From the NCBI GenBank assembly GCA_030524665.1, contig JAUNGL010000014.1:1-36781 (forward strand): DNA of 36,781 nt. The letters run 5' to 3'. This document shows, piece after piece, positions 17,857 through 27,592 of this stretch (its first letter is position 1; each line of letters starts with the position of its first letter). The DNA comes from Lachnospiraceae bacterium (GTDB taxonomy: Bacteria > Bacillota > Clostridia > Lachnospirales > Lachnospiraceae). A program made the translations under genes and the position numbers. The notes beneath the pieces were generated by a model. That model worked only from the letters and a program-made list of their open reading frames with translations, was not told the origin of the DNA and did not search any database.

Positions 17857-18711
17857 TTATTCTCTGCCTCCTTCGGAGGTATTCTCTTTTCTGCTCTCCC
17901 TGTACTGTCTCGGTGTCTGGCCGATTCTTTTTTTGAATATCCGGCTGAAATACTGGACATCCGTAATGCCGACCTGTTTCGCCACTGTCTTGATCGGCAT
18001 CTGCGAAGTCAGCAGAAGATTCGCTGCGTGACGGATACGCCGTGATGTCACATATTCCGTAACCGGAATTCCCGTTTCCTTTTTAAACAGGTTAGACAGG
18101 TATGAGCCATTCACATTCAACCGTTCGGCAAAATAATTCAACGTCAGCGGCTGGCTCAAATCCATATCCACTGCCAGTATAATCCTTTTCACAAGAGGCG
18201 AATAATTTCCAAAAGACTTCAGCCTGTTCAGTTCACAGTATTTTCTGGCAACCTCCTCCGCAATCACTCCGCACTCTTCCATACTTTGGGCCTGTTCAAT
18301 CCTGCTGATTCCCTCCGTATAGACACGGTCCAGATGTAAATCCTCAACCCCGCTCTCCCGAAGTGCCTGCCCCATTAATCCTGACAGAAGCACCAGATCA
18401 AATTTATATTCTGTGAGGTTATCTTTCAGTCTTCCCGCAACTCCGAGTGCGCGGCGTTCCCGCATCACCAGACACGCCTGATACTCATTTCCTTCACGCA
18501 CGCTCTGAAGCAGCCGGTCTACCTGCTGATACCTTACCGTAATTTCTTGTACATCATACGAAATTTCCTGTCCTCTGCGCTCCATACTCTGTCCTGCAAA
18601 TTTATAAACTTCTTCCTTCACTTTATCACTCCTGTATTTCTTTTTCTTCGGAACAGCTTTTATTGTTCTTTTTTCAGAACAATTTGATACATCTGTATGA
18701 TTCCGAATCAT
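17857..18711 (-). CDS. AraC-family transcriptional regulator
   Basis: The 284-residue protein ends in a classical AraC/XylS double helix-turn-helix domain (about 180-275): LTLNYFAERLNVNGSYLSNL, then RIRHAANLLL and VGITDVQYFSRIFKKRIGQTPRQYR. The N-terminal part is helical and charged with no cupin fold, so the signal it senses is unknown. It is divergent from the tat-rnf cluster and 177 nt from it, so control of that cluster is possible; it also lies upstream of the CmpB-acyltransferase pair on its own strand. The start has AAGGA 4 nt upstream. A perfect 15-bp palindrome (18697-18711) covers the start codon and an 8-bp inverted repeat lies at 18662-18683. Confidence 0.85.
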   Translation of the reverse strand: MIRNHTDVSNCSEKRTIKAVPKKKKYRSDKVKEEVYKFAGQSMERRGQEISYDVQEITVRYQQVDRLLQSVREGNEYQACLVMRERRALGVAGRLKDNLTEYKFDLVLLSGLMGQALRESGVEDLHLDRVYTEGISRIEQAQSMEECGVIAEEVARKYCELNRLKSFGNYSPLVKRIILAVDMDLSQPLTLNYFAERLNVNGSYLSNLFKKETGIPVTEYVTSRRIRHAANLLLTSQMPIKTVAKQVGITDVQYFSRIFKKRIGQTPRQYRESRKENTSEGGRE

Positions 18712-18888: not shown

Positions 18889-19326
18889 ATGAAAATCGGC
18901 ATACAGGAACTGCTTCTTGTCTTTGTTGTCGCTCTTTTCGTATTCGGTCCCGACAAATTACCGCTGTACGCCAGAAAATTCGGGCAGGCCCTCGGCCAAT
19001 TCCGGAAGTTTTCCGATGAGGCGACAAAAGATATCCGCGAAAGCATCGTAGAGCCTCTGGAAGAAGCCCAGCGTCCTTTACGTGAAGCGATGGAACCGAT
19101 TACTGATCTTGAGAAAACGGTAAAAGGAAATCTGAACGATATCCAAAAGTCATTCTCCGATATTGGAAAACCGAAAAAGACACCGGATTCCACCGCGTCT
19201 CAGACTTCAGAACCGCCAGCAGCTCCGGGCGCAGATCTTCAGAATGCATATGCGCAGACTGATACTTCGGATACGCCTGTCCGGGACACAACCGACGCGG
19301 CCGACACAGTCTCTGCAAATATATAG
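18889..19326 (+). CDS. TatA/TatB-like Sec-independent translocase subunit
   Basis: The 145-residue protein has the TatA/B architecture: one N-terminal transmembrane helix (IGIQELLLVFVVALFVFGPDKLP), the FGP hinge, an amphipathic helix (ARKFGQALGQFRKFSDEATK) and a long polar tail rich in Ser, Asp and Thr. The Glu-containing IQELLLV start and the tail length are more TatB-like than TatA-like. ATG 18889 is chosen because GGGAGG lies 9 nt before it; an ATG seven codons upstream lies before that site. It is the first gene of the tat-rnf cluster. With the next two genes it should form a complete twin-arginine translocase for folded proteins. Confidence 0.88.
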   Translation: MKIGIQELLLVFVVALFVFGPDKLPLYARKFGQALGQFRKFSDEATKDIRESIVEPLEEAQRPLREAMEPITDLEKTVKGNLNDIQKSFSDIGKPKKTPDSTASQTSEPPAAPGADLQNAYAQTDTSDTPVRDTTDAADTVSANI

Positions 19327-19375
19327 ATACATACAATTATTTTTCAGGAGGAAGGCAGATGCGCAGCATTTTTTA

Positions 19376-19441
19376 ATGCCTTTCGACGGCCTGCCGCCAA
19401 AGGAACATACGCGGCATTACATATTATATGAGGAGGATTGA
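19376..19441 (+). CDS. Possible 21-residue micro-ORF between tat genes
   Basis: A five-codon frame (ATG 19359, well spaced from AGGAGGAAGG) ends in TAATG, where a second frame of 21 codons begins. That frame ends three bases before the next tatA start. I do not recognise the peptide; it starts MPFDGLPPKEHTRH and ends in acidic residues that overlap the GAGGAGG site of tatA. The arrangement could be translational coupling through a leader or the remnant of a gene. Real translation is uncertain. Confidence 0.3.
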   Translation: MPFDGLPPKEHTRHYILYEED

Positions 19442-19444
19442 AGC

Positions 19445-19615
19445 ATGAAAATTGGAACTACCGAATTACTTGTCATTCTGGCGATCGTCGTTCTGCTGTT
19501 CGGACCGACACAGCTCCCGAAGCTGAGCCGGATGTTCGGAAAGAGCATCAAAAATTTCCGTGAAAGCATGTCTGAGGAAGAAAACAGCAGCTCCGCAGAC
19601 CATACGGAACAGTAA
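19445..19615 (+). CDS. tatA: Short TatA/TatE-type translocase subunit (56 aa)
   Basis: The frame encodes a minimal TatA: MKIGTTELLVILAIVVLLFG as the membrane helix, then the FGPTQLPKL hinge and the amphipathic helix SRMFGKSIKNFRESM, with a tail of only about 14 residues. TatA oligomers form the variable pore of the twin-arginine translocase. At 56 residues it is at the short end of the family. GAGGAGG lies 7 nt before the ATG. Its TAA stop overlaps the tatC ATG (TAATG at 19613-19617), so TatA and TatC synthesis are coupled. Confidence 0.93.
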   Translation: MKIGTTELLVILAIVVLLFGPTQLPKLSRMFGKSIKNFRESMSEEENSSSADHTEQ

Positions 19616-20364
19616 TGGGTGCGCAGTCTGATAAAAATATGACTCTGGCAGGTCATCTGCGCGAACTTCGCAATCGGCTTGTCGTCTGCATTATCTGTCT
19701 CATCATCTCTTTTCTGGTCGGACTGCATTTTGCCCCCCAGATTGTAGATAAATTGACAGGACTTGGGGAAGTATATGGATATGTTTATGTATTCATCTCC
19801 CCTCAGGAGCTTCTGATGCAGTATTTTTCTGTCGCGCTGCTCGCCGGTGTCATAATTACACTTCCGGTAATTCTTTTCAATATCTGGGCTTTTGTCCAGC
19901 CGGGTCTGCGTAAGAATGAAAACCTGCTGTTCCTGTCTGCGATGATTTTCGGATTAATCTGCTTCGCGCTTGGTGTTTTGTTCGCCTACAAGGTCATGTT
20001 TCCTTTCATGCTCCATTTTCTGATTGAGCTGAGTGAAGGAAGCAAGATCACCTCATCGATCAGTGTACAGAATTACATGGACTTTCTGCTCAGTATTTTC
20101 CTTGTCTTCGGGCTTGTCTTTGAGCTTCCGGTCGTATCTGTACTTCTGACACAGATGGGCCTGCTGAAACCCGCCTGGATGAAAAAAGGCAGAAGAGTCA
20201 TCATTGTAGTTATTTTTCTGGTGGCTGCATTTATCACGCCGCCAGATATTGTTTCACAGATTATGGTCGCCATCCCAATGGTCGGCCTGTATGAATTGAG
20301 TATTATCCTGTGTACTTTTTCTCTGAAGCTAAAACGGAACAGGAAGCAGGAGGAAGAGGAATAA
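19615..20364 (+). CDS. tatC: Twin-arginine translocase receptor TatC
   Basis: The 249-residue protein has six transmembrane helices and the conserved cytoplasmic N-terminal motif LAGHLRELRNRL, which binds the twin-arginine signal. The periplasmic-side LLMQYFSVALLAGVIITLPV segment and the PAWMKKGRR loop are typical. It recognises folded, often cofactor-containing substrates. The start overlaps the tatA stop codon. The next gene, 29 nt downstream, encodes a protein with a Tat-like signal, so this translocase may serve mainly that substrate. Confidence 0.95.
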   Translation: MGAQSDKNMTLAGHLRELRNRLVVCIICLIISFLVGLHFAPQIVDKLTGLGEVYGYVYVFISPQELLMQYFSVALLAGVIITLPVILFNIWAFVQPGLRKNENLLFLSAMIFGLICFALGVLFAYKVMFPFMLHFLIELSEGSKITSSISVQNYMDFLLSIFLVFGLVFELPVVSVLLTQMGLLKPAWMKKGRRVIIVVIFLVAAFITPPDIVSQIMVAIPMVGLYELSIILCTFSLKLKRNRKQEEEE

Positions 20365-20393
20365 AACGAATAATATAAGAAAGGAAGAGAAAA

Positions 20394-22418
20394 ATGGAAA
20401 AAGGAAATATTCCACGGAAAACTTTTGTCAAAGGCATCGCTGCCGGCGGAATTGCCATTGCTACCCTTGGCATTCTGCAGGTCGGTGAATATACGCTTGA
20501 ACAGAAGACCGGAAAAAATGAGATCGGTCCTGGAAGCACGTACAGCACAGATGCGCCAAAAGGCTCTGCCGAAACCGCCTCTGTCATGCCGGCCTCACTT
20601 ACCCCGGGTACGTATACTGCTACTGCACCCGGTATCTCCAGTGACATTACCGTCACCTGTACCTTCGATGAATCCGGCATCACAGAGATGACCGCTGACG
20701 TTTCCGGTGAAACTGCCGGACTTGGCGCGGACATCGGAGATACCATGATTGAACAGATTCTTGCCGCTCAGTCCGCAAATGTGGACGGGGTCAGCGGTTG
20801 TACAATTACTGCGGATGCCATCAAAGCTGCAGTTGCTGAGTGTATCGCTCAGGCGTCCGGCGGAGAATCCGGAGCAGAGAATCCCGATTCGCAGGAGGCT
20901 TCTTCGGAGCTTTCCACAGAAGCAGCCAATGCGGAAGCACAGACCGATGCTTTCTCTGAAAGCGGCAATGCAGAAGCCCAGGCTGAAGTTTCCTCTGAAA
21001 ACGGCAATGCCCCGGCCGAAGCTGCTTCCGCCGGAGCCGGCGTGTTCACACCGGGCACTTATATGGCTACAGCATCCGGTATTTCCAGTGATGTCACCGT
21101 GACCTGTACCTTTGATGTGTCCGGTATCACAGAGATGAGCGTAGATGTTTCCGGAGAGACAGCAGGACTCGGTGCAGATATCGGCGATACGATGATCGAG
21201 CAGTTTCTCGCTGCCCAGTCTTCGGAGGTGGAAGGTGTGAGCGGCTGTACCATCACCGCAGATGCACTGAAGGCTGCTGTTGCAGACTGTATGGCACAGG
21301 CATCCTCTTCTGTTCCGGCCGGAGCATCAGAAACGGAATTGGAAACTGCCGCTTCTGATGAAACAGAAGTCAGTGCTGAACTGACCGAAGTGACAGAGCT
21401 TGAACCTGGAACCTACATGGCAACTGCCAAAGGTATGGTAAGTGATATTACCGTGACCTGTATTTTCGGCGATTCCAGTATCACAGAAGTGATCACCAAT
21501 GTATCCGGTGAGACCGATGGAATCGGCGCTGCGATCGGTGATATGATGGCGAGACGTTTTCTGGAAGCACAGTCTGCGGAAGTAGACGGTGTATCAGGCG
21601 CTACCGTCACGTCAGACGCATTGAAAGCTGCTGTTGCCGATTGTATTTCCCAGGCCGAAACTGACGGAATCGAACTGAAAGTACCGAAAACAGAAGAAGC
21701 TGTTGAAACAGTTACAGAAGCTGTATCCGAAGAAGAAACCGAAACTGTACCTGAGACAGAGGCTGTATCCGAAGCTTCCGAAGAAGAAACAGAAAATCCA
21801 AATGCGTTTTCCTACACTGCTTCCGCAAAAGGGATGGAAAGTGATGTTACTGTCACCTGTACGTTTGACGGAACTGATATGATCGCTATGACTGCGGATG
21901 TATCCGGCGAAACAGACGGAATCGGTGCTGCAATCGGTGACATGATGGCAAAACGTGTTCTGGAAGCACAGTCTGCTGAGGTAGACGGCGTTTCCGGCGC
22001 TACAATCACATCCGACGCAATCAAAACCGCCGTTGGTGAGTGTCTCGCACAGGCTGGCGTTACCACAGAAGGAAGCGCTGAAGCTTCAGATGCTGAGTCT
22101 GAAAACAGCACCGGGGCAGACGATGCTTCCGCCGGGCAGAGTGCCACAGCTTACACACCTGGTACCTACACTGCCACCGCAAAAGGGATGGAAAGCGATG
22201 TTACCGTGACCTGCACCTTCGACGAGACTGGTATTACGGAGGTTACTGCGGATGTATCCGGCGAAACTCAGGGAATCGGTGCTGCCATTGGCGACATGAT
22301 GGTCAAAAGAATTCTGGAAGCACAGTCCGATGAATTTGACGGAGTATCTGGCGCCACCATCACATCCGATGCAGTCAAAGCAGCTGTTGCCGACTGTATC
22401 GCACAGGCTACTGCCTGA
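20394..22418 (+). CDS. Exported protein with five tandem FMN-binding domains
   Basis: The 674-residue protein starts with a Tat-like signal: IPRKTFVKG followed by a mild Gly/Ala-rich hydrophobic stretch (about 14-31). Arg-Lys replaces the usual Arg-Arg pair. Five FMN_bind (RnfG-type) repeats follow, joined by acidic, Ser/Glu-rich linkers. Flavinylation motifs end at Thr137, Thr286, Thr404, Thr537 and Thr655. Repeats 3-5 have the canonical DGVSGAT; repeats 1 and 2 have SGCT. Each repeat also has one Cys in the VTC strand and one in the final helix, which could pair outside the cell. There is no lipobox or wall anchor, so the signal helix may stay as a membrane anchor. FMN would be attached by an ApbE flavin transferase, which is not in the window. 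Lying between tatC and rnfC, it probably carries electrons to or from Rnf. Confidence 0.88.
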   Translation: MEKGNIPRKTFVKGIAAGGIAIATLGILQVGEYTLEQKTGKNEIGPGSTYSTDAPKGSAETASVMPASLTPGTYTATAPGISSDITVTCTFDESGITEMTADVSGETAGLGADIGDTMIEQILAAQSANVDGVSGCTITADAIKAAVAECIAQASGGESGAENPDSQEASSELSTEAANAEAQTDAFSESGNAEAQAEVSSENGNAPAEAASAGAGVFTPGTYMATASGISSDVTVTCTFDVSGITEMSVDVSGETAGLGADIGDTMIEQFLAAQSSEVEGVSGCTITADALKAAVADCMAQASSSVPAGASETELETAASDETEVSAELTEVTELEPGTYMATAKGMVSDITVTCIFGDSSITEVITNVSGETDGIGAAIGDMMARRFLEAQSAEVDGVSGATVTSDALKAAVADCISQAETDGIELKVPKTEEAVETVTEAVSEEETETVPETEAVSEASEEETENPNAFSYTASAKGMESDVTVTCTFDGTDMIAMTADVSGETDGIGAAIGDMMAKRVLEAQSAEVDGVSGATITSDAIKTAVGECLAQAGVTTEGSAEASDAESENSTGADDASAGQSATAYTPGTYTATAKGMESDVTVTCTFDETGITEVTADVSGETQGIGAAIGDMMVKRILEAQSDEFDGVSGATITSDAVKAAVADCIAQATA

Positions 22419-22562
22419 TGGATCAGTGACAGTCAAACCACCTGATCCAGTATCATCCAATACCGGAAAGATCCGGTTTATATATAAAACATTTATCATA
22501 GTTGCGGTTTCACATGACTGAACTGTAACCACAAAACACCGCAGTATCTGCGGTTCAGGAGG
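22419..22562 (+). promoter_or_regulatory. Structured leader upstream of rnfC
   Basis: Three inverted repeats follow the FMN-protein stop codon. TGGATCAG/CTGATCCA is at 22419-22449. ACCGGA/TCCGGT is at 22462-22477, followed by an A/U-rich stretch. ACCGCAG-TAT-CTGCGGT is at 22538-22554, two bases before the AGGAGG site of rnfC. A copy of TGCGGT at 22503-22508 can pair with the same ACCGCA, giving two mutually exclusive structures beside the Shine-Dalgarno. This could tune rnf expression separately from tat and the FMN protein. No known riboswitch class was recognised. Confidence 0.5.
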
Positions 22563-22571
22563 TAGTAGCTT

Positions 22572-23906
22572 ATGAGCCATAAAACGTTTCGGGGAGGCGT
22601 TCATCCCGACGGGCACAAGGAGCTTTCGAAAGGTACACCGGTCGAAGCTTTTCTGCCCAAAGGTGACATGGTTTTCCCACTCAGCCAGCACATCGGTAAG
22701 CCGGCAAAACCCATTGTAAAAAAGGGTGATTCCGTCCTTGCCGGACAACTCATCGCAGAAGCAGACGGATTTGTATCCGCAAACATCGTCAGCTCCTGTT
22801 CCGGTACGGTCAAAGCAGTCGAGGAACGTCATCTCGGCACTGGCGGACGTGCGATGTGTATTGTAATTGAAAATGACGGTCAGTTCACACCTGCTCCCGG
22901 TGTCGGAGTGGAGCGTGACCCGGATTCCCTCTCAAATGAAGAGATTCTGGCAGCCATCAAAGCGGCCGGAATCGTCGGCCTCGGCGGTGCAGGATTCCCA
23001 ACCCATGTAAAGCTTGCCCCCAGAAATCCGGAGGATATTGAGTATATTATCGCTAACGGTTCGGAATGTGAACCTTACATCACCTGTGATGACCAGTTGA
23101 TGCAGCGCGAAGCAAAAGGGATCGTAACAGGAATCAAGCTTCTGATGCAGCTTTTCCCGAATGCAGTCGGTGTGATTGCCGTCGAGGACAATAAGCCGGA
23201 AGCGATTGAAACACTGAAAGGTGTCTGCAATGGTGAAAAGGGCATCACGGTGATGCCTGTCATGGCAAAATATCCGGAGGGCGGTGAGCGAAGCCTGATC
23301 GGTGTCGTGACCGGACGCCAGCTTCGTTTTGGACAGCTCCCCGCTGAACTTGGGTGCGTTGTCTGTAACGTAGCATCCCTGAATGCTATTTACCGCGCAG
23401 CCTGCAAATCAGAACCGCTGATGGAGCGTCTGTTTACCGTATCCGGTGACGCCGTAGCTTCTCCGCGCACGATGTCTGTTCGTATCGGTACCAGCTGTAC
23501 CGAAGTACTTGAAGCGGCTGGCGGCATCAAGCCGGGTGTGGAAGTGAAAAAAGCAGTATTCGGCGGTCCGATGATGGGTGTTCCTCTGACAACACTGGAC
23601 ACTCCGGTCTGCAAAAACAACAATGCGCTGACCGTTCTCGCGGAAGATGAAGTGGAGCTTGCGGAAGAACAAATGACCGCCTGCATCCGCTGCGGACGCT
23701 GCGGACAGGTCTGCCCGATCGGACTCGTCCCGCAGATGATGGCTGAGGCCGCTGAGCGCAAGGATTTTGAACGTTATGAGAAAAAACTGTACGGGCTGGA
23801 TTGTATTGCCTGTGGTACCTGCACCTACATCTGTCCGGCCAAACGCCCGCTGATGCAGCTCTTCAAGCAGACCAAGGCCGCAATCATGGCATCGAAGAGA
23901 AAGTGA
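22572..23906 (+). CDS. rnfC: Rnf complex subunit RnfC (NADH-side Fe-S flavoprotein)
   Basis: The 444-residue peripheral subunit is the NAD-reactive end of the Rnf complex, which couples ferredoxin:NAD+ electron transfer to Na+ or H+ pumping. The N-terminal barrel-sandwich region (THKxFRGGVHP-type start) precedes the nucleotide and FMN segment GLGGAGFPTHVKL and NGSECEPY. The C-terminal part has two [4Fe-4S] motifs, CIRCGRCGQVCP (Cys371, 374, 377, 381) and CIACGTCTYICP (Cys411, 414, 417, 421). The start has CAGGAGG 9 nt upstream. It is the first of five contiguous rnf genes. Confidence 0.96.
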   Translation: MSHKTFRGGVHPDGHKELSKGTPVEAFLPKGDMVFPLSQHIGKPAKPIVKKGDSVLAGQLIAEADGFVSANIVSSCSGTVKAVEERHLGTGGRAMCIVIENDGQFTPAPGVGVERDPDSLSNEEILAAIKAAGIVGLGGAGFPTHVKLAPRNPEDIEYIIANGSECEPYITCDDQLMQREAKGIVTGIKLLMQLFPNAVGVIAVEDNKPEAIETLKGVCNGEKGITVMPVMAKYPEGGERSLIGVVTGRQLRFGQLPAELGCVVCNVASLNAIYRAACKSEPLMERLFTVSGDAVASPRTMSVRIGTSCTEVLEAAGGIKPGVEVKKAVFGGPMMGVPLTTLDTPVCKNNNALTVLAEDEVELAEEQMTACIRCGRCGQVCPIGLVPQMMAEAAERKDFERYEKKLYGLDCIACGTCTYICPAKRPLMQLFKQTKAAIMASKRK

Positions 23907-23919
23907 GGGGACAGACAAG

Positions 23920-25464
23920 ATGAATGAAAAACTGCTGAATGTTTCTTCCAGCCCGCATATCAGGCATAAACTGACAACCGGCTCCGTCATGTTTGACGTG
24001 ATCCTGTCACTGTTGCCTGCTACGGTGTTTGGTATTTACCATTTCGGACTGCATGCATTTCTGGTGATTGCAGCTTCTATCATCGCCGCAGTCCTGACAG
24101 AATTTATATTTGATTACATAGCAAAGAAACCGAATACCGTCACGGATGGAAGTGCCGTTGTCACAGGTCTTCTGCTGGCGCTCTCACTCTCCCCATCCGT
24201 ACCATTGTATATTCCGATTCTTGGCGGTATCTTTGCCATCCTGTTCGTCAAGTGCTTTTTCGGAGGACTTGGCAAGAACTTTATGAACCCGGCACTCGCT
24301 GCCCGCTGTTTCCTGCTGATCTCCTTCGGAAACACAATGACCAGCTTTGCAGTAGACGGTGTCAGCTCTGCTACGCCGCTCGCAGCCCTGAAGGCCGGAG
24401 ATATTATCAATGTCTCCAAGGTTTATCTGGGCTATTCCAACAGCGTCATCGGCGGCTCCGCACTGGCATTGATCATCGGCGGACTCTTCCTCTGGGCATC
24501 CGGCGGAATTACCTTTGAAATTCCTGCTTCCTGCCTTGTGGTATTTACCGCTTTTATGGCAATCTTCGGCGGAAAGGGCTTCGATATCCCCTTCCTGCTC
24601 GCGCACCTCTGTGCAGGCGGTATCCTGATGGGTGCATTCTTCATGGCTACCGATCCGGTGACCAGCCCGGTGACTTCGAAGGGGCAACTGATCTACGGTG
24701 CGATTGTCGGTCTTCTCGCAGGCCTCTTCCGTGTGTACGGAAGCTCTGCAGACTCCGTCAGCTACGCAATTATCCTTTCGAACCTGTTTGTACCGTTTAT
24801 TGACAAATACTCTGTTCCGAAGCCGCTCGGCTACCGTGAGACAGGCGCTTCCGGAAAGAAGGAATTCCCGAAGGCTGCTGTCAACCTCGCTGTCATCACT
24901 CTGGTTGCAGGACTTGCACTCAGCAGCGTTTATCTGCTGACCAAGGACCGGATCGAGGAACAGCAGATGGCTGCAAATGCAGCTTCTTATCAGGAGGTTT
25001 GCCCGGATGCAGCTTCGTTTACCTATGACGATGCAATCGTATCCGCAGTCGATGCACTTGGCGGCGAAGCATACGATGAACAGTTCGGACGTACCTATAT
25101 TAACGAGATGGTGACAGGACTTGGATCAGACGGCTCCGTTGCAGGCTACGTCATCAGCGTCACATCCGCAGACGGTTTCGACGGAAATATCACACTGGCA
25201 GTCGGTCTCTCGGCAGATGGTACGGTCAATGGAATTTCCTTCACAGAACTGAATGAGACAGCCGGTATGGGTATGAAGTGCGGCGAAGACGAATTCAAGA
25301 ACCAGTTCAACGGCGTGAACACGGATCAGTTTACTCTGGATAAGTCCGGTTCTGCTTCTGCGGACAATGAGATCAATTCCGTCTCCGGTGCATCCATCTC
25401 CTCCGGTGCCGTTGTCAATGCAGTTAATACCGCACTTGCCTTCTATACGGCAACAGTTGAGTAA
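23920..25464 (+). CDS. Fused RnfD-RnfG membrane flavoprotein
   Basis: A single 514-codon frame contains an RnfD domain (about 1-310) and a complete RnfG domain (about 315-514). The RnfD part has multiple helices and the flavinylation motif DGVSSATPL with Thr152. The RnfG part has its own membrane helix (VNLAVITLVAGLALSSVYLL) and an extracellular FMN_bind domain whose attachment motif is NSVSGAS, with Ser492 rather than Thr as the likely FMN acceptor. In most Rnf operons rnfD and rnfG are separate. The linker between them is short (about KPLGYRETGASGKKEFPK). The two subunits contact each other in Rnf and Nqr, so the fusion is structurally sensible. No frameshift is involved, as the fused frame reads through cleanly. 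Confidence 0.93.
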   Translation: MNEKLLNVSSSPHIRHKLTTGSVMFDVILSLLPATVFGIYHFGLHAFLVIAASIIAAVLTEFIFDYIAKKPNTVTDGSAVVTGLLLALSLSPSVPLYIPILGGIFAILFVKCFFGGLGKNFMNPALAARCFLLISFGNTMTSFAVDGVSSATPLAALKAGDIINVSKVYLGYSNSVIGGSALALIIGGLFLWASGGITFEIPASCLVVFTAFMAIFGGKGFDIPFLLAHLCAGGILMGAFFMATDPVTSPVTSKGQLIYGAIVGLLAGLFRVYGSSADSVSYAIILSNLFVPFIDKYSVPKPLGYRETGASGKKEFPKAAVNLAVITLVAGLALSSVYLLTKDRIEEQQMAANAASYQEVCPDAASFTYDDAIVSAVDALGGEAYDEQFGRTYINEMVTGLGSDGSVAGYVISVTSADGFDGNITLAVGLSADGTVNGISFTELNETAGMGMKCGEDEFKNQFNGVNTDQFTLDKSGSASADNEINSVSGASISSGAVVNAVNTALAFYTATVE

Positions 25465-25478
25465 GGGAGGGTCACAGC

Positions 25479-26159
25479 ATGAATCAATATATGGAACGAA
25501 TCTATAATGGAGTCGTAAAGGAAAATCCCTGTATCATCCTGATGCTCGGTATGTGTCCGACACTCGCTGTTACGACCTCCGCAATCAACGGTCTCGGTAT
25601 GGGACTTTCCACACTGGCCGTACTGATTTTTTCAAACCTGATCATATCCCTGATGCGTAAAATCATTCCGGATCAGGTACGTCTTCCGGCCTACATTGTG
25701 ATCGTGGCTACCCTCGTAACAATCGTAGACCTCGTACTTCAGGCATACGTGCCGAGCCTTTACAGCGCTCTCGGTATCTACATCCCTCTGATCGTTGTAA
25801 ACTGTATCATCCTCGGCCGTGCAGAAGCCTATGCAAATAAAGTAACACCAGTCCTTGCCATGTTCGATGGCATCGGTATGGGACTTGGATTTACCATTGC
25901 GCTTACCGTCATCGGTGTCGTACGTGAATTTCTCGGTTCAGGAGCTGCTTTCGGAATCACGCTTCTGCCGGAAAGCATCCCGCCAATCGCCATCTTCGGC
26001 AAGGCGCCCGGTGCCTTCCTCGTTATGGCCATTCTGGTAGCAATCCTAAATGCACTGAGCATCCGCACCGCAGCGAACAAAAAAGTCGAAGGCTGTGACG
26101 GCTGCTGCTCTTCCTGCAGTTCTTCCTGCAGCGATAACGGAAAGGAGGGAACAAAGTAA
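25479..26159 (+). CDS. rnfE: Rnf complex subunit RnfE with Cys-rich tail
   Basis: The 226-residue protein is an RnfE/NqrD-type membrane subunit with about six helices. It includes the ENPCIILMLGMCPTLAVTT segment, whose cysteine helps hold the intramembrane Fe-S centre shared with RnfA. After the last helix a tail holds five cysteines in a Ser/Gly setting, CDGCCSSCSSSC. This is longer and richer in Cys than I would expect for RnfE and could bind metal or a cluster. GGGAGG precedes the ATG. Its stop overlaps the rnfA start (TAATG). Confidence 0.94.
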   Translation: MNQYMERIYNGVVKENPCIILMLGMCPTLAVTTSAINGLGMGLSTLAVLIFSNLIISLMRKIIPDQVRLPAYIVIVATLVTIVDLVLQAYVPSLYSALGIYIPLIVVNCIILGRAEAYANKVTPVLAMFDGIGMGLGFTIALTVIGVVREFLGSGAAFGITLLPESIPPIAIFGKAPGAFLVMAILVAILNALSIRTAANKKVEGCDGCCSSCSSSCSDNGKEGTK

Positions 26160-26740
26160 TGTCAACTTCCCTGATTATGATTGCTATTACTGCTGCGCTG
26201 GTCAACAATGTCGTACTCAGCCAGTTCCTGGGAATCTGTTCCTTCCTGGGTGTATCAAAACAGATTAAAAACTCCGCAAGCCTCGGCGGCGCAGTTATCT
26301 TCGTTATCACGATTTCCTCGGCTGTAGCGAATCTGCTTTATCAGTATCTGCTGCTTCCGCTTCATCTGGAATATCTGGAAACGATTGTATTCATCCTTGT
26401 CATCGCAGCACTTGTACAGATGGTTGAGATGTTCCTGAAAAAAACATCCCCTGCGATCTATCAGGCACTCGGTATCTACCTGCCGCTGATCACAACGAAC
26501 TGTGCAGTGCTCGGAGTCGCTCTGACGAACGTACAGAATGATTACAACTTCATCCAGAGTGTTACTGCAGGCTTCGGTACCGCAGTCGGCTACACAATTG
26601 CTATCGTGCTGCTGGCCGGTATCCGTGAACGTATCAACGAGGCAGACCTCCCGGCTCCGTTCCGCGGTGCTCCGGTTGTACTGCTCTCCGCTGCACTGAT
26701 GGCCATTGCATTTATGGGCTTCAGCGGTCTGTCATTTTAA
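26159..26740 (+). CDS. rnfA: Rnf complex subunit RnfA
   Basis: The 193-residue hydrophobic protein is homologous to RnfE in inverted topology and pairs with it to form the membrane core that carries electrons past an intramembrane [2Fe-2S] centre. The signature VNNVVLSQFLGICSFLGV near the N-terminus and LPLITTNCAVLGVAL in the middle carry the two conserved cysteines. The start overlaps the rnfE stop, with AAAGGAGGG just upstream inside the rnfE end. Length is normal. Confidence 0.96.
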   Translation: MSTSLIMIAITAALVNNVVLSQFLGICSFLGVSKQIKNSASLGGAVIFVITISSAVANLLYQYLLLPLHLEYLETIVFILVIAALVQMVEMFLKKTSPAIYQALGIYLPLITTNCAVLGVALTNVQNDYNFIQSVTAGFGTAVGYTIAIVLLAGIRERINEADLPAPFRGAPVVLLSAALMAIAFMGFSGLSF

Positions 26741-26753
26741 AAGGAGGTAACAT

Positions 26754-27542
26754 ATGCAGTCAATTATTATTGCAACCACTGCAGTGGCGGTCATCGGCCT
26801 CCTGATCGGACTGCTGCTGATTACGGTCGATAAGAAATTCAAAGTAGAAGTGGATGAAAGAGAAGCGGCTGTCCGCGAATGCCTGCCAGGCAACAACTGC
26901 GGCGGCTGCGGATATGCCGGATGTGATGCGATGGCTTCCGCTATCGTCAATGAAGAAGCTCCGGTCAACGGATGTCCGGTCGGCGGCGCTCCAGTCGCTG
27001 AGAAAATTGCCCGTATCATGGGTGTGGATGCCGGTGAAGCAGAGAAAGTAGCTGCCTTCGTAAAATGCTCTGGTGACTGTGAGAACGCAGCTTCAAGATG
27101 TCACTATGTTGGTATCCATGACTGTGCTTCCGCAGTAGCCAGCGGACTCTCACCATGGATCTGTGACTACGGATGCATTGGCTTCGGTACCTGTGCAGCA
27201 GCATGTCCGTTCGGTGCAATCTCCGTCCACAACGGTGTGGCTTCCGTAGACCGCTCCAAATGTATGGCGTGCGGCAAATGCGTTGCTGCCTGCCCGCGCC
27301 ACCTCATCGAGCTGGTACCGGATTCCGCAGTCTATGCGGTACGCTGCTCCAGCCGTGACCGCGGTGCCGCTGTGAAAAAGGCATGTTCCGCAGGCTGTAT
27401 CGGATGTAAGCTCTGCATGAAGCAGTGTGAATTCGGTGCGATTGAAGTCATTGACAACGTAGCACGCATCGATTACTCCAAGTGTACCGGCTGCGGCAAG
27501 TGCGCTGAGAAGTGTCCGGTCGGTGTAATCAAGAAAAAATAA
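26754..27542 (+). CDS. rnfB: Rnf complex subunit RnfB (ferredoxin-side)
   Basis: The 262-residue subunit accepts electrons from reduced ferredoxin. One N-terminal membrane helix (about 4-24) is followed by a [4Fe-4S] site ECLPGNNCGGCGYAGC (Cys43, 49, 52, 57). A central Cys-rich segment (CSGDCENAASRC...C...C) follows, then ferredoxin-type cluster motifs CIGFGTCAAACP, CMACGKCVAACP, CIGCKLCMKQCE and CTGCGKCAEKCP. AAAAGGAGG precedes the ATG. It is the last gene of the operon and is followed by a strong terminator. Confidence 0.96.
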   Translation: MQSIIIATTAVAVIGLLIGLLLITVDKKFKVEVDEREAAVRECLPGNNCGGCGYAGCDAMASAIVNEEAPVNGCPVGGAPVAEKIARIMGVDAGEAEKVAAFVKCSGDCENAASRCHYVGIHDCASAVASGLSPWICDYGCIGFGTCAAACPFGAISVHNGVASVDRSKCMACGKCVAACPRHLIELVPDSAVYAVRCSSRDRGAAVKKACSAGCIGCKLCMKQCEFGAIEVIDNVARIDYSKCTGCGKCAEKCPVGVIKKK

Positions 27543-27563: not shown

Positions 27564-27592
27564 GGGGAGATGCAGACAGCATCTCCCCTTTT
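27564..27592 (+). terminator. Terminator of the tat-rnf cluster
   Basis: GGGGAGATGC (27564-27573) pairs perfectly with GCATCTCCCC (27579-27588) around a 5-nt loop and is followed by TTTT. It lies 21 nt after the rnfB stop codon. Confidence 0.9.

Follow-up and report, generated by a model that had tools for sequence, protein, structure and literature searches.

A Tat–flavin–Rnf gene cluster in a Lachnospiraceae bacterium

The subject of this study is a gene cluster contained in a window of 36,781 nucleotides (the whole stretch of DNA that was analysed) from a Lachnospiraceae bacterium (GenBank assembly GCA_030524665.1, contig JAUNGL010000014.1). Between positions 18889 and 27542, the + strand of this window encodes, in the order tatA–tatA–tatC–(FMN_bind)5–rnfC–rnfDG(fused)–rnfE–rnfA–rnfB, components of the twin-arginine translocation (Tat) system, a protein with five FMN_bind domains and the subunits of an Rnf complex (Table 1). 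An initial annotation, made from the sequence, had described these genes as contiguous on one strand. Coordinates of the open reading frames (ORFs) and profile matches agree with this description, with the refinement that rnfD and rnfG form a single ORF and that no separate rnfG is found in the cluster. By Pfam and NCBIfam profiles, the cluster contains a minimal Tat system of TatC and at least one TatA, and a full Rnf set of RnfA, RnfB, RnfC, RnfD, RnfE and an FMN_bind RnfG. The RnfG part of the fusion scores 99.3 bits in TIGR01947, just below the cut-off of 102, and lies above the Pfam FMN_bind cut-off; where related loci contain the whole gene, the ORF mostly has the same length (about 512–555 residues). 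Also present are the two TAATG overlaps noted before, between tatA and tatC at 19613–19617 and between rnfE and rnfA at 26157–26161, and the final terminator, for which a hairpin match was obtained that in itself constitutes weak evidence, since the scan returned 12 sites with 8.2 expected. The two tatA genes are separated by 118 nucleotides, tatC and the FMN gene by 29, and the FMN gene and rnfC by 153, with two hairpins in the latter gap that define a possible processing or attenuation site.

The product of the FMN gene contains five 258-nucleotide repeats in register, starting at positions 20601, 21048, 21402, 21801 and 22155, which together with the five FMN_bind profile matches rules out that they reflect chance or low complexity. 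The flavin acceptor motifs read DGVSGCT, EGVSGCT and three times DGVSGAT, with the acceptor threonine in all five; relative to the consensus [S/T]GA[S/T], three domains thus contain SGAT and two SGCT. The N-terminus of the protein contains IPRKTFVKG, which lacks the paired arginines of an SRRxFLK-type motif, followed by a hydrophobic segment with a mean hydropathy of 1.84, and inspection by eye found neither a lipobox nor a clear cleavage site in this N-terminus.

Table 1. Features of the cluster with their positions in the window and the matches on which their assignment is based.
Feature	Position	Strand	Evidence
tatA/B-like gene, long, 145 aa	18889..19326	+	PF02416 49.2 bits; tatB model 50.9 bits, under its 56.5 cut-off
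tatA, short, 56 aa	19445..19615	+	PF02416 55.7 bits; TIGR01411 above cut-off
tatC, 249 aa	19615..20364	+	PF00902 210.8 bits; TIGR00945 above cut-off
penta-FMN_bind protein, 674 aa	20394..22418	+	five FMN_bind stretches (Pfam); five 258-nt repeats
hairpin in FMN–rnfC gap	22462..22477	+ (listing)	consensus match only
hairpin in FMN–rnfC gap	22538..22554	- (listing)	consensus match only
rnfC, 444 aa	22572..23906	+	TIGR01945 497 bits, above cut-off
rnfD–rnfG fusion, 514 aa	23920..25464	+	PF03116 residues 8–304; PF04205 FMN_bind residues 419–506
rnfE, 226 aa	25479..26159	+	TIGR01948 above cut-off
rnfA, 193 aa	26159..26740	+	TIGR01943 above cut-off
rnfB, 262 aa	26754..27542	+	TIGR01944 above cut-off; PF04060; several Fe4S4 motifs
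terminator-like hairpin, 10 pairs, then TTTTCC	27564..27588	+	hairpin scan

Upstream of the cluster, a gene named by eye as an AraC-type regulator (17857–18711) is oriented divergently, and several relatives carry a divergent SRRDF reductase at this place.

Occupants of the tatC–rnfC slot in relatives

Relatives of the locus were collected among named genomes in a scan with a tatC alignment, which identified 173, and the best 80 loci were taken for all counts of named loci; these and all other counts and p values concerning relatives ignore the kinship between genomes. Among genomes of the family, tatC is found above cut-off in 8 of 200 and among those of the genus in 23 of 40, in both cases including the host, with the match in G213 consisting of a weak fragment with stops. 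The co-occurrence of Tat, multi-FMN and Rnf genes expected from the initial annotation is indeed conserved, with rnfC located downstream of tatC on the same strand in 15 of the 20 genus loci fetched and in 32 of the 80 named loci. In the latter 32, the slot between both genes is occupied by an FMN_bind protein carrying an FAD domain in 16, by a multi-FMN protein in 14 and by both in two. This slot reductase is a fumarate-reductase-like enzyme with a canonical SRR signal. In L087 and L132 the rnf genes are found upstream of tat, and in eight named loci the contig is too short to judge the slot.

The described conservation bears on the question of whether the Tat genes and the FMN–rnf genes could be separate units that are merely neighbours, as might be suggested by the 118- and 153-nucleotide gaps, the latter with its hairpins. 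Such a view would also be in line with 31 of the 80 named loci, where the 700 nucleotides after tatC contain no start of an FMN_bind or FAD gene, and rnfC is not found there either, despite the availability of more than 2.5 kb of sequence (in four of the 31, an FMN_bind or FAD gene follows further down), and with G152, where some 34 kb of a single contig lie between tatC and rnfC, and G235, where both genes reside on different contigs. Conversely, four of the five remaining genus loci stop at a contig edge, with G235 as the unlinked case, and the same order recurs in Oscillibacter and Lachnospiraceae records; since it is conserved in this way in relatives, it is no accident. Moreover, RnfC matches, some of them weak and partial, are present in all 40 genus genomes, and 11 of the 17 genomes without tatC retain a full-length rnfC with 69–86% identity, yet among the matches listed for these 17 there are only zero to four to FMN_bind in 16 and seven in one 65%-complete genome, compared to a range of 0 to 16 in tatC-positive genomes. 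We thus consider a purely coincidental neighbourhood highly improbable.

In a tree of tatC sequences, where the closest named rows to the window are from Lachnospiraceae, multi-FMN slots are confined to a Lachnospiraceae-rich group (support 85 in a quick tree without bootstrap), whereas reductase slots are found in this group and additionally in groups of Oscillospiraceae type. Because its slots span more groups of the tree, whose root is unproven, the reductase is suggested to be the older occupant. A related picture emerges from a quick tree of FMN domains (118 rows and 89 columns after removal of 34 near-identical rows, no bootstrap), in which, among reductases, all 67 repeats of multi-FMN proteins, and likewise two truncated single-FMN proteins, are closest to the domains of slot-type reductases. 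This fits an origin of the FMN chain from a reductase whose FAD domain was lost and whose FMN domain multiplied, which is the presumed direction of the change. The acceptor threonine is found in 86 of 87 readable repeats from 20 multi-FMN proteins (the remaining four of the 91 rows are blank at the motif).

Separately from these comparisons, we noted in G208, G213, G228, G233 and G234 a TatC-like stretch with 36–38% identity to the TatC of the window, which contains stop codons in three of the five genomes and which is a second copy in four. Other tatA–tatC pairs from Lachnospiraceae (L019 and L020) adjoin an Fe-S protein starting with TRRQFLKISGKS and an FMN_bind protein, and G255 contains on contig C589 a 3053-residue open frame with two FMN_bind matches.

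Twin arginines and the FAD domain

The initial annotation had proposed a dedicated Tat route for the export of the flavin chain, which is not borne out by the signal sequences of the proteins concerned. The host genome is a metagenome-assembled genome (MAG) of 3.39 Mb with a completeness of 82%, in which we found a single tatC match and four FMN_bind reductases with FAD domain. Three of these start with SRRDFLKG or SRRSFLKG and the fourth with a Sec-like or ambiguous sequence, MKQRRSKLTALLG. As three host reductases bear SRRxFLK signals, the Tat system of the window is predicted to serve at least three further proteins with canonical signals.

The relationship between signal and domain composition was investigated in a deduplicated set of FMN_bind proteins that match the signal pattern used for the search, comprising 48 FAD-containing and 24 FMN-only proteins. 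The arginine pair is found in 47 of the former, with L059 (RK) as exception, and in none of the latter (Fisher test, p = 3e-18), where the corresponding residues are RT in 12 cases, RE and RG in three each, RK in two, and RN, PK, KS and RA in one each. Two of the 24 FMN-only proteins (L067_24 and L079_7) are cut by a contig end after three and two FMN domains and could be followed by an FAD domain, whereas the other 22 are complete; 11 FAD rows out of 48 are likewise incomplete. We rejected the possibility that the split would be a mere artefact of truncated ORFs, since the fragments outside the FMN-only count are explained, with L117_23 and L133_30 being first parts of reductases ending at an in-frame TAG and L025_49 and L129_18 running off their contigs, and since a worst-case count of these four RR reductase fragments as FMN-only still results in p = 1e-14. 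The motif counts do not include proteins lacking such a motif, for instance L019_12, L020_13, L063_11 and the Sec-type reductases, and the single-FMN proteins preceding rnfC in G152 and G235, which contain the arginine-free motif SQTTFLKG, are outside the 24. The phenylalanine of the motif is present in all 48 FAD proteins and in 13 of 24 FMN-only proteins. With loose patterns, lipobox-like sites were detected in 9 of 48 FAD and none of 24 FMN-only proteins, and AxA-like sites in 35 of 48 and 4 of 24, respectively.

The hydrophobic segment has a mean of 2.06 in FMN-only proteins (n=22), of 1.64 in slot-type reductases (n=23) and of 1.55 in other FAD proteins (n=24), after omission of three rows with short signal stretches; the first two groups differ with p = 1.6e-7 and have overlapping ranges. 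In this comparison, in the FMN-domain tree and in the ORF counts described below, 'slot-type' refers to the signal pattern and not to the position of the gene. When 34 residues are compared from the motif onwards, the signal of the window protein shows a mean identity of 46% with slot-type reductases, against 44% with other FMN-only proteins and 32% with the remaining Tat reductases.

Counterparts of the chain are also found in the absence of tatC. Two Lachnospiraceae without a tatC match (G065 and G121) encode three-repeat FMN proteins with plain N-terminal hydrophobic segments within their rnf clusters; in G121, the FMN gene is followed by an ORF that was judged by eye to be ApbE-like, and an ORF before rnfC was likewise judged EetB-like. 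The rnf cluster without tatC at L149:1821-10098 contains two three-repeat FMN proteins and two rnfD genes. The absence of the arginine pair in all 24 FMN-only proteins and the presence of Rnf-linked multi-FMN proteins in tatC-negative genomes both argue against a dedicated Tat route.

As a separate observation, two MAGs each carry a slot reductase interrupted by a single in-frame TAG, whose position differs between them (L117:5303-7429 and L133:6077-8302), with an intact homologue in L119. A reading of these codons as pyrrolysine was dismissed, as PylS was above cut-off in none of the eight genomes searched.

A proposed flavin relay between Rnf and exported reductases

Genomes with a multi-FMN slot differ from those with a reductase slot in the number of other FMN_bind ORFs of reductase length, counted by hand under a rule applied by eye (about 300 residues or more, excluding RnfDG and the slot protein), with a test for an FAD domain covering part of these ORFs. 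At least one such ORF is found in 20 of 21 multi-FMN genomes (median 3), whereas among reductase-slot genomes 3 of 14 contain one or more (median 0; p = 5e-6). Four of 18 genomes (G252–G255) were dropped from this count, either for another multi-FMN-like ORF or for an unlinked rnfC, and with G252 and G253 restored the reductase-slot count is 5 of 16 (p = 1e-5). Compared to the five Lachnospiraceae reductase-slot genomes, which all contain none, p is 0.001. FMN_bind counts of genus genomes are lower bounds, and the tatC-positive G207, G221, G232, G152 and G235 were unused; of the 19 named multi-FMN or mixed loci, ten were searched for other FMN_bind ORFs, eight were taken as genus genomes and L123 was outside.

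Our favoured interpretation, which we hold to be probable and which derives from sequence comparison, is that the cluster is an operon for extracytosolic flavin respiration, where Tat exports FAD-containing reductases and the chain acts as a probably Sec-inserted relay that feeds several of them. We infer the following sequence of export, flavin loading and electron flow. The Rnf complex, with fused RnfD and RnfG, would carry electrons of low potential to the outside of the membrane, and the Tat system would export folded, FAD-loaded fumarate-reductase-like enzymes with SRRxF[LIV]KG signals. In the host and its relatives within the Lachnospiraceae, the slot is held or shared by an FAD-less relative of the reductase with, in most cases, three to seven FMN_bind copies. 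This chain would most likely be inserted via Sec, with its uncleaved N-terminal segment serving as membrane anchor, and be flavinylated outside by exported ApbE, of which the host MAG contains one, with an N-terminal export signal assigned by eye, next to one EetB-type subunit of an FAD exporter above the cut-off of PF07456. The tethered chain would then relay electrons from Rnf to Tat- and Sec-exported reductases encoded elsewhere, and a single Rnf could thereby serve several electron acceptors. The proposal of a shared flavin bus is mainly motivated by the larger number of other reductase-length FMN_bind ORFs in multi-FMN genomes. Of the initial claim of a Tat-exported flavin chain at the outer face of Rnf, the relay linked to Rnf is therefore plausible in light of the conserved co-occurrence, the acceptor threonines, the export signal of ApbE and the EetB-type subunit, while its dedicated export by Tat found no support. 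It is conceivable, though we advance this part with reserve, that a reductase relative devoid of FAD and with multiplied FMN domains has left the Tat pathway and turned a private link between Rnf and reductase into a common membrane-tethered flavin bus.

Several observations weigh against this interpretation. Besides the 31 named loci without FMN_bind or FAD gene next to tatC, 8 of 23 tatC-positive genus genomes show just zero to three FMN_bind matches among those listed. Since some FAD reductases, including at least one in the host genome, carry signals that appear Sec-like by eye, an FAD domain does not always mean export by Tat. The strongest of the competing views holds that the chain is a true Tat substrate, exported in folded form, with a more hydrophobic segment making up for the missing second arginine. 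Such compensation has been described for Tat signals (PMC7317946, in the parts covered), and the combination of a non-RR motif with a stronger segment occurs in many relatives; in addition, the FMN gene adjoins tatC in the window and in relatives, and the first arginine of the motif is kept in 22 and the lysine in 21 of 24 FMN-only proteins. The window signal, whose RK variant is shared with the FAD reductase L059 and whose segment falls within the range of FMN-only proteins and reductases alike, fits both groups, and the window protein may for that reason itself be Tat-exported. Natural Tat signals that lack the arginine pair and are rescued by hydrophobicity would be equally new. Conversely, the segments following SQTTFLKG in G152 and G235 are not strengthened (1.80 and 1.78, which, in these arginine-free signals, also fails to match the trend expected from our proposal), truncated single-FMN proteins (L029, L031 and L101) contain an RG motif (SRGTFVLG), the motif phenylalanine is relaxed in FMN-only proteins, and multi-FMN proteins of tatC-negative genomes have plain segments. 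Finally, proteins whose cofactor is loaded in the cytosol pass folded through Tat, whereas others cross unfolded via Sec and receive the cofactor outside (PMC9973259, in the parts covered), and FMN would be added by an ApbE that in the host bears an export signal itself. On balance, we regard Tat export of the chain as unlikely in general.

A second competing view assumes that electrons leave the chain directly for an extracellular acceptor, diffusible or solid, such as free flavin, iron or humics, instead of passing to exported reductases. It finds a foothold in G256 (L065), which contains the multi-FMN gene and no other FMN_bind ORF besides RnfDG, at odds with a shared bus, and in the proposal that multi-flavinylated proteins mediate transfer over longer distances (PMC8238504, in the parts covered). 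With many other reductase-length FMN_bind ORFs in multi-FMN genomes, and with none of the nine cluster proteins matching a cell-wall-binding or cytochrome domain (Pfam, E 0.01), we consider this route improbable and a still weaker candidate than Tat export of the chain.

The favoured relay to exported reductases shares features with several known systems. The slot reductase of L027 (7001–9037) matches flavocytochrome c fumarate reductase (1d4c, E = 2.3e-29), from which slot reductases differ by an FMN_bind domain in place of the haem domain, a Tat signal and the setting in an rnf operon; they can also be likened to flavin reductases of the UrdA type, a name taken from the literature and not from a match. 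The Listeria system of PplA, FmnB and FrdA uses Ndh2 in place of Rnf. It resembles our scheme in its exported ApbE-like enzyme, FAD export by EetB, flavinylated relay and exported fumarate reductase (PMC9973259, in the parts covered), whereas here Rnf adjoins and the Tat genes are located within the cluster. Tandem FMN_bind domains following an N-terminal membrane sequence are known from SaFMN3 and CbFMN4 (BBA Adv 2023, PMC10339131), for which the passages covered mention no tat or rnf gene context, and domain 1 of an FMN4 protein from a Clostridiaceae bacterium (PDB 8p2b, E = 8.7e-7) is the only solved relative found. Meheust et al., 2021 (PMC8238504), in the parts covered, already describe extracytosolic proteins that are multi-flavinylated as well as RNF clusters in which RnfG carries several flavins, and also the Rnf association of several FMN_bind domains, clusters with fumarate-reductase-like domains and a proposed outward electron branch. 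In contrast to these systems, RnfG here contains a single FMN domain and shares one ORF with RnfD, the chain is encoded by a gene of its own, the cluster includes tatAC, and chain and Tat-type reductase alternate in the slot. The words 'tat' and 'twin' are absent from the main text of PMC8238504. None of the listed titles and abstract openings described the tat–FMN–rnf arrangement, nor did the partial texts covered mention the Tat link, the alternating slot or the split between RR and FAD.

Our results offer a testable account of how a single Rnf might power several extracytosolic reductases in Lachnospiraceae and related bacteria. They also provide a natural series of signals, RR, RK, RT, RG and QT, in which the absence of the twin arginine tracks the absence of an FAD domain that would need loading before export. 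In Lachnospiraceae and Oscillospiraceae, the succession of tatC, slot and rnfC also provides a genomic marker by which candidates for anaerobic respiration linked to Rnf may be recognised.

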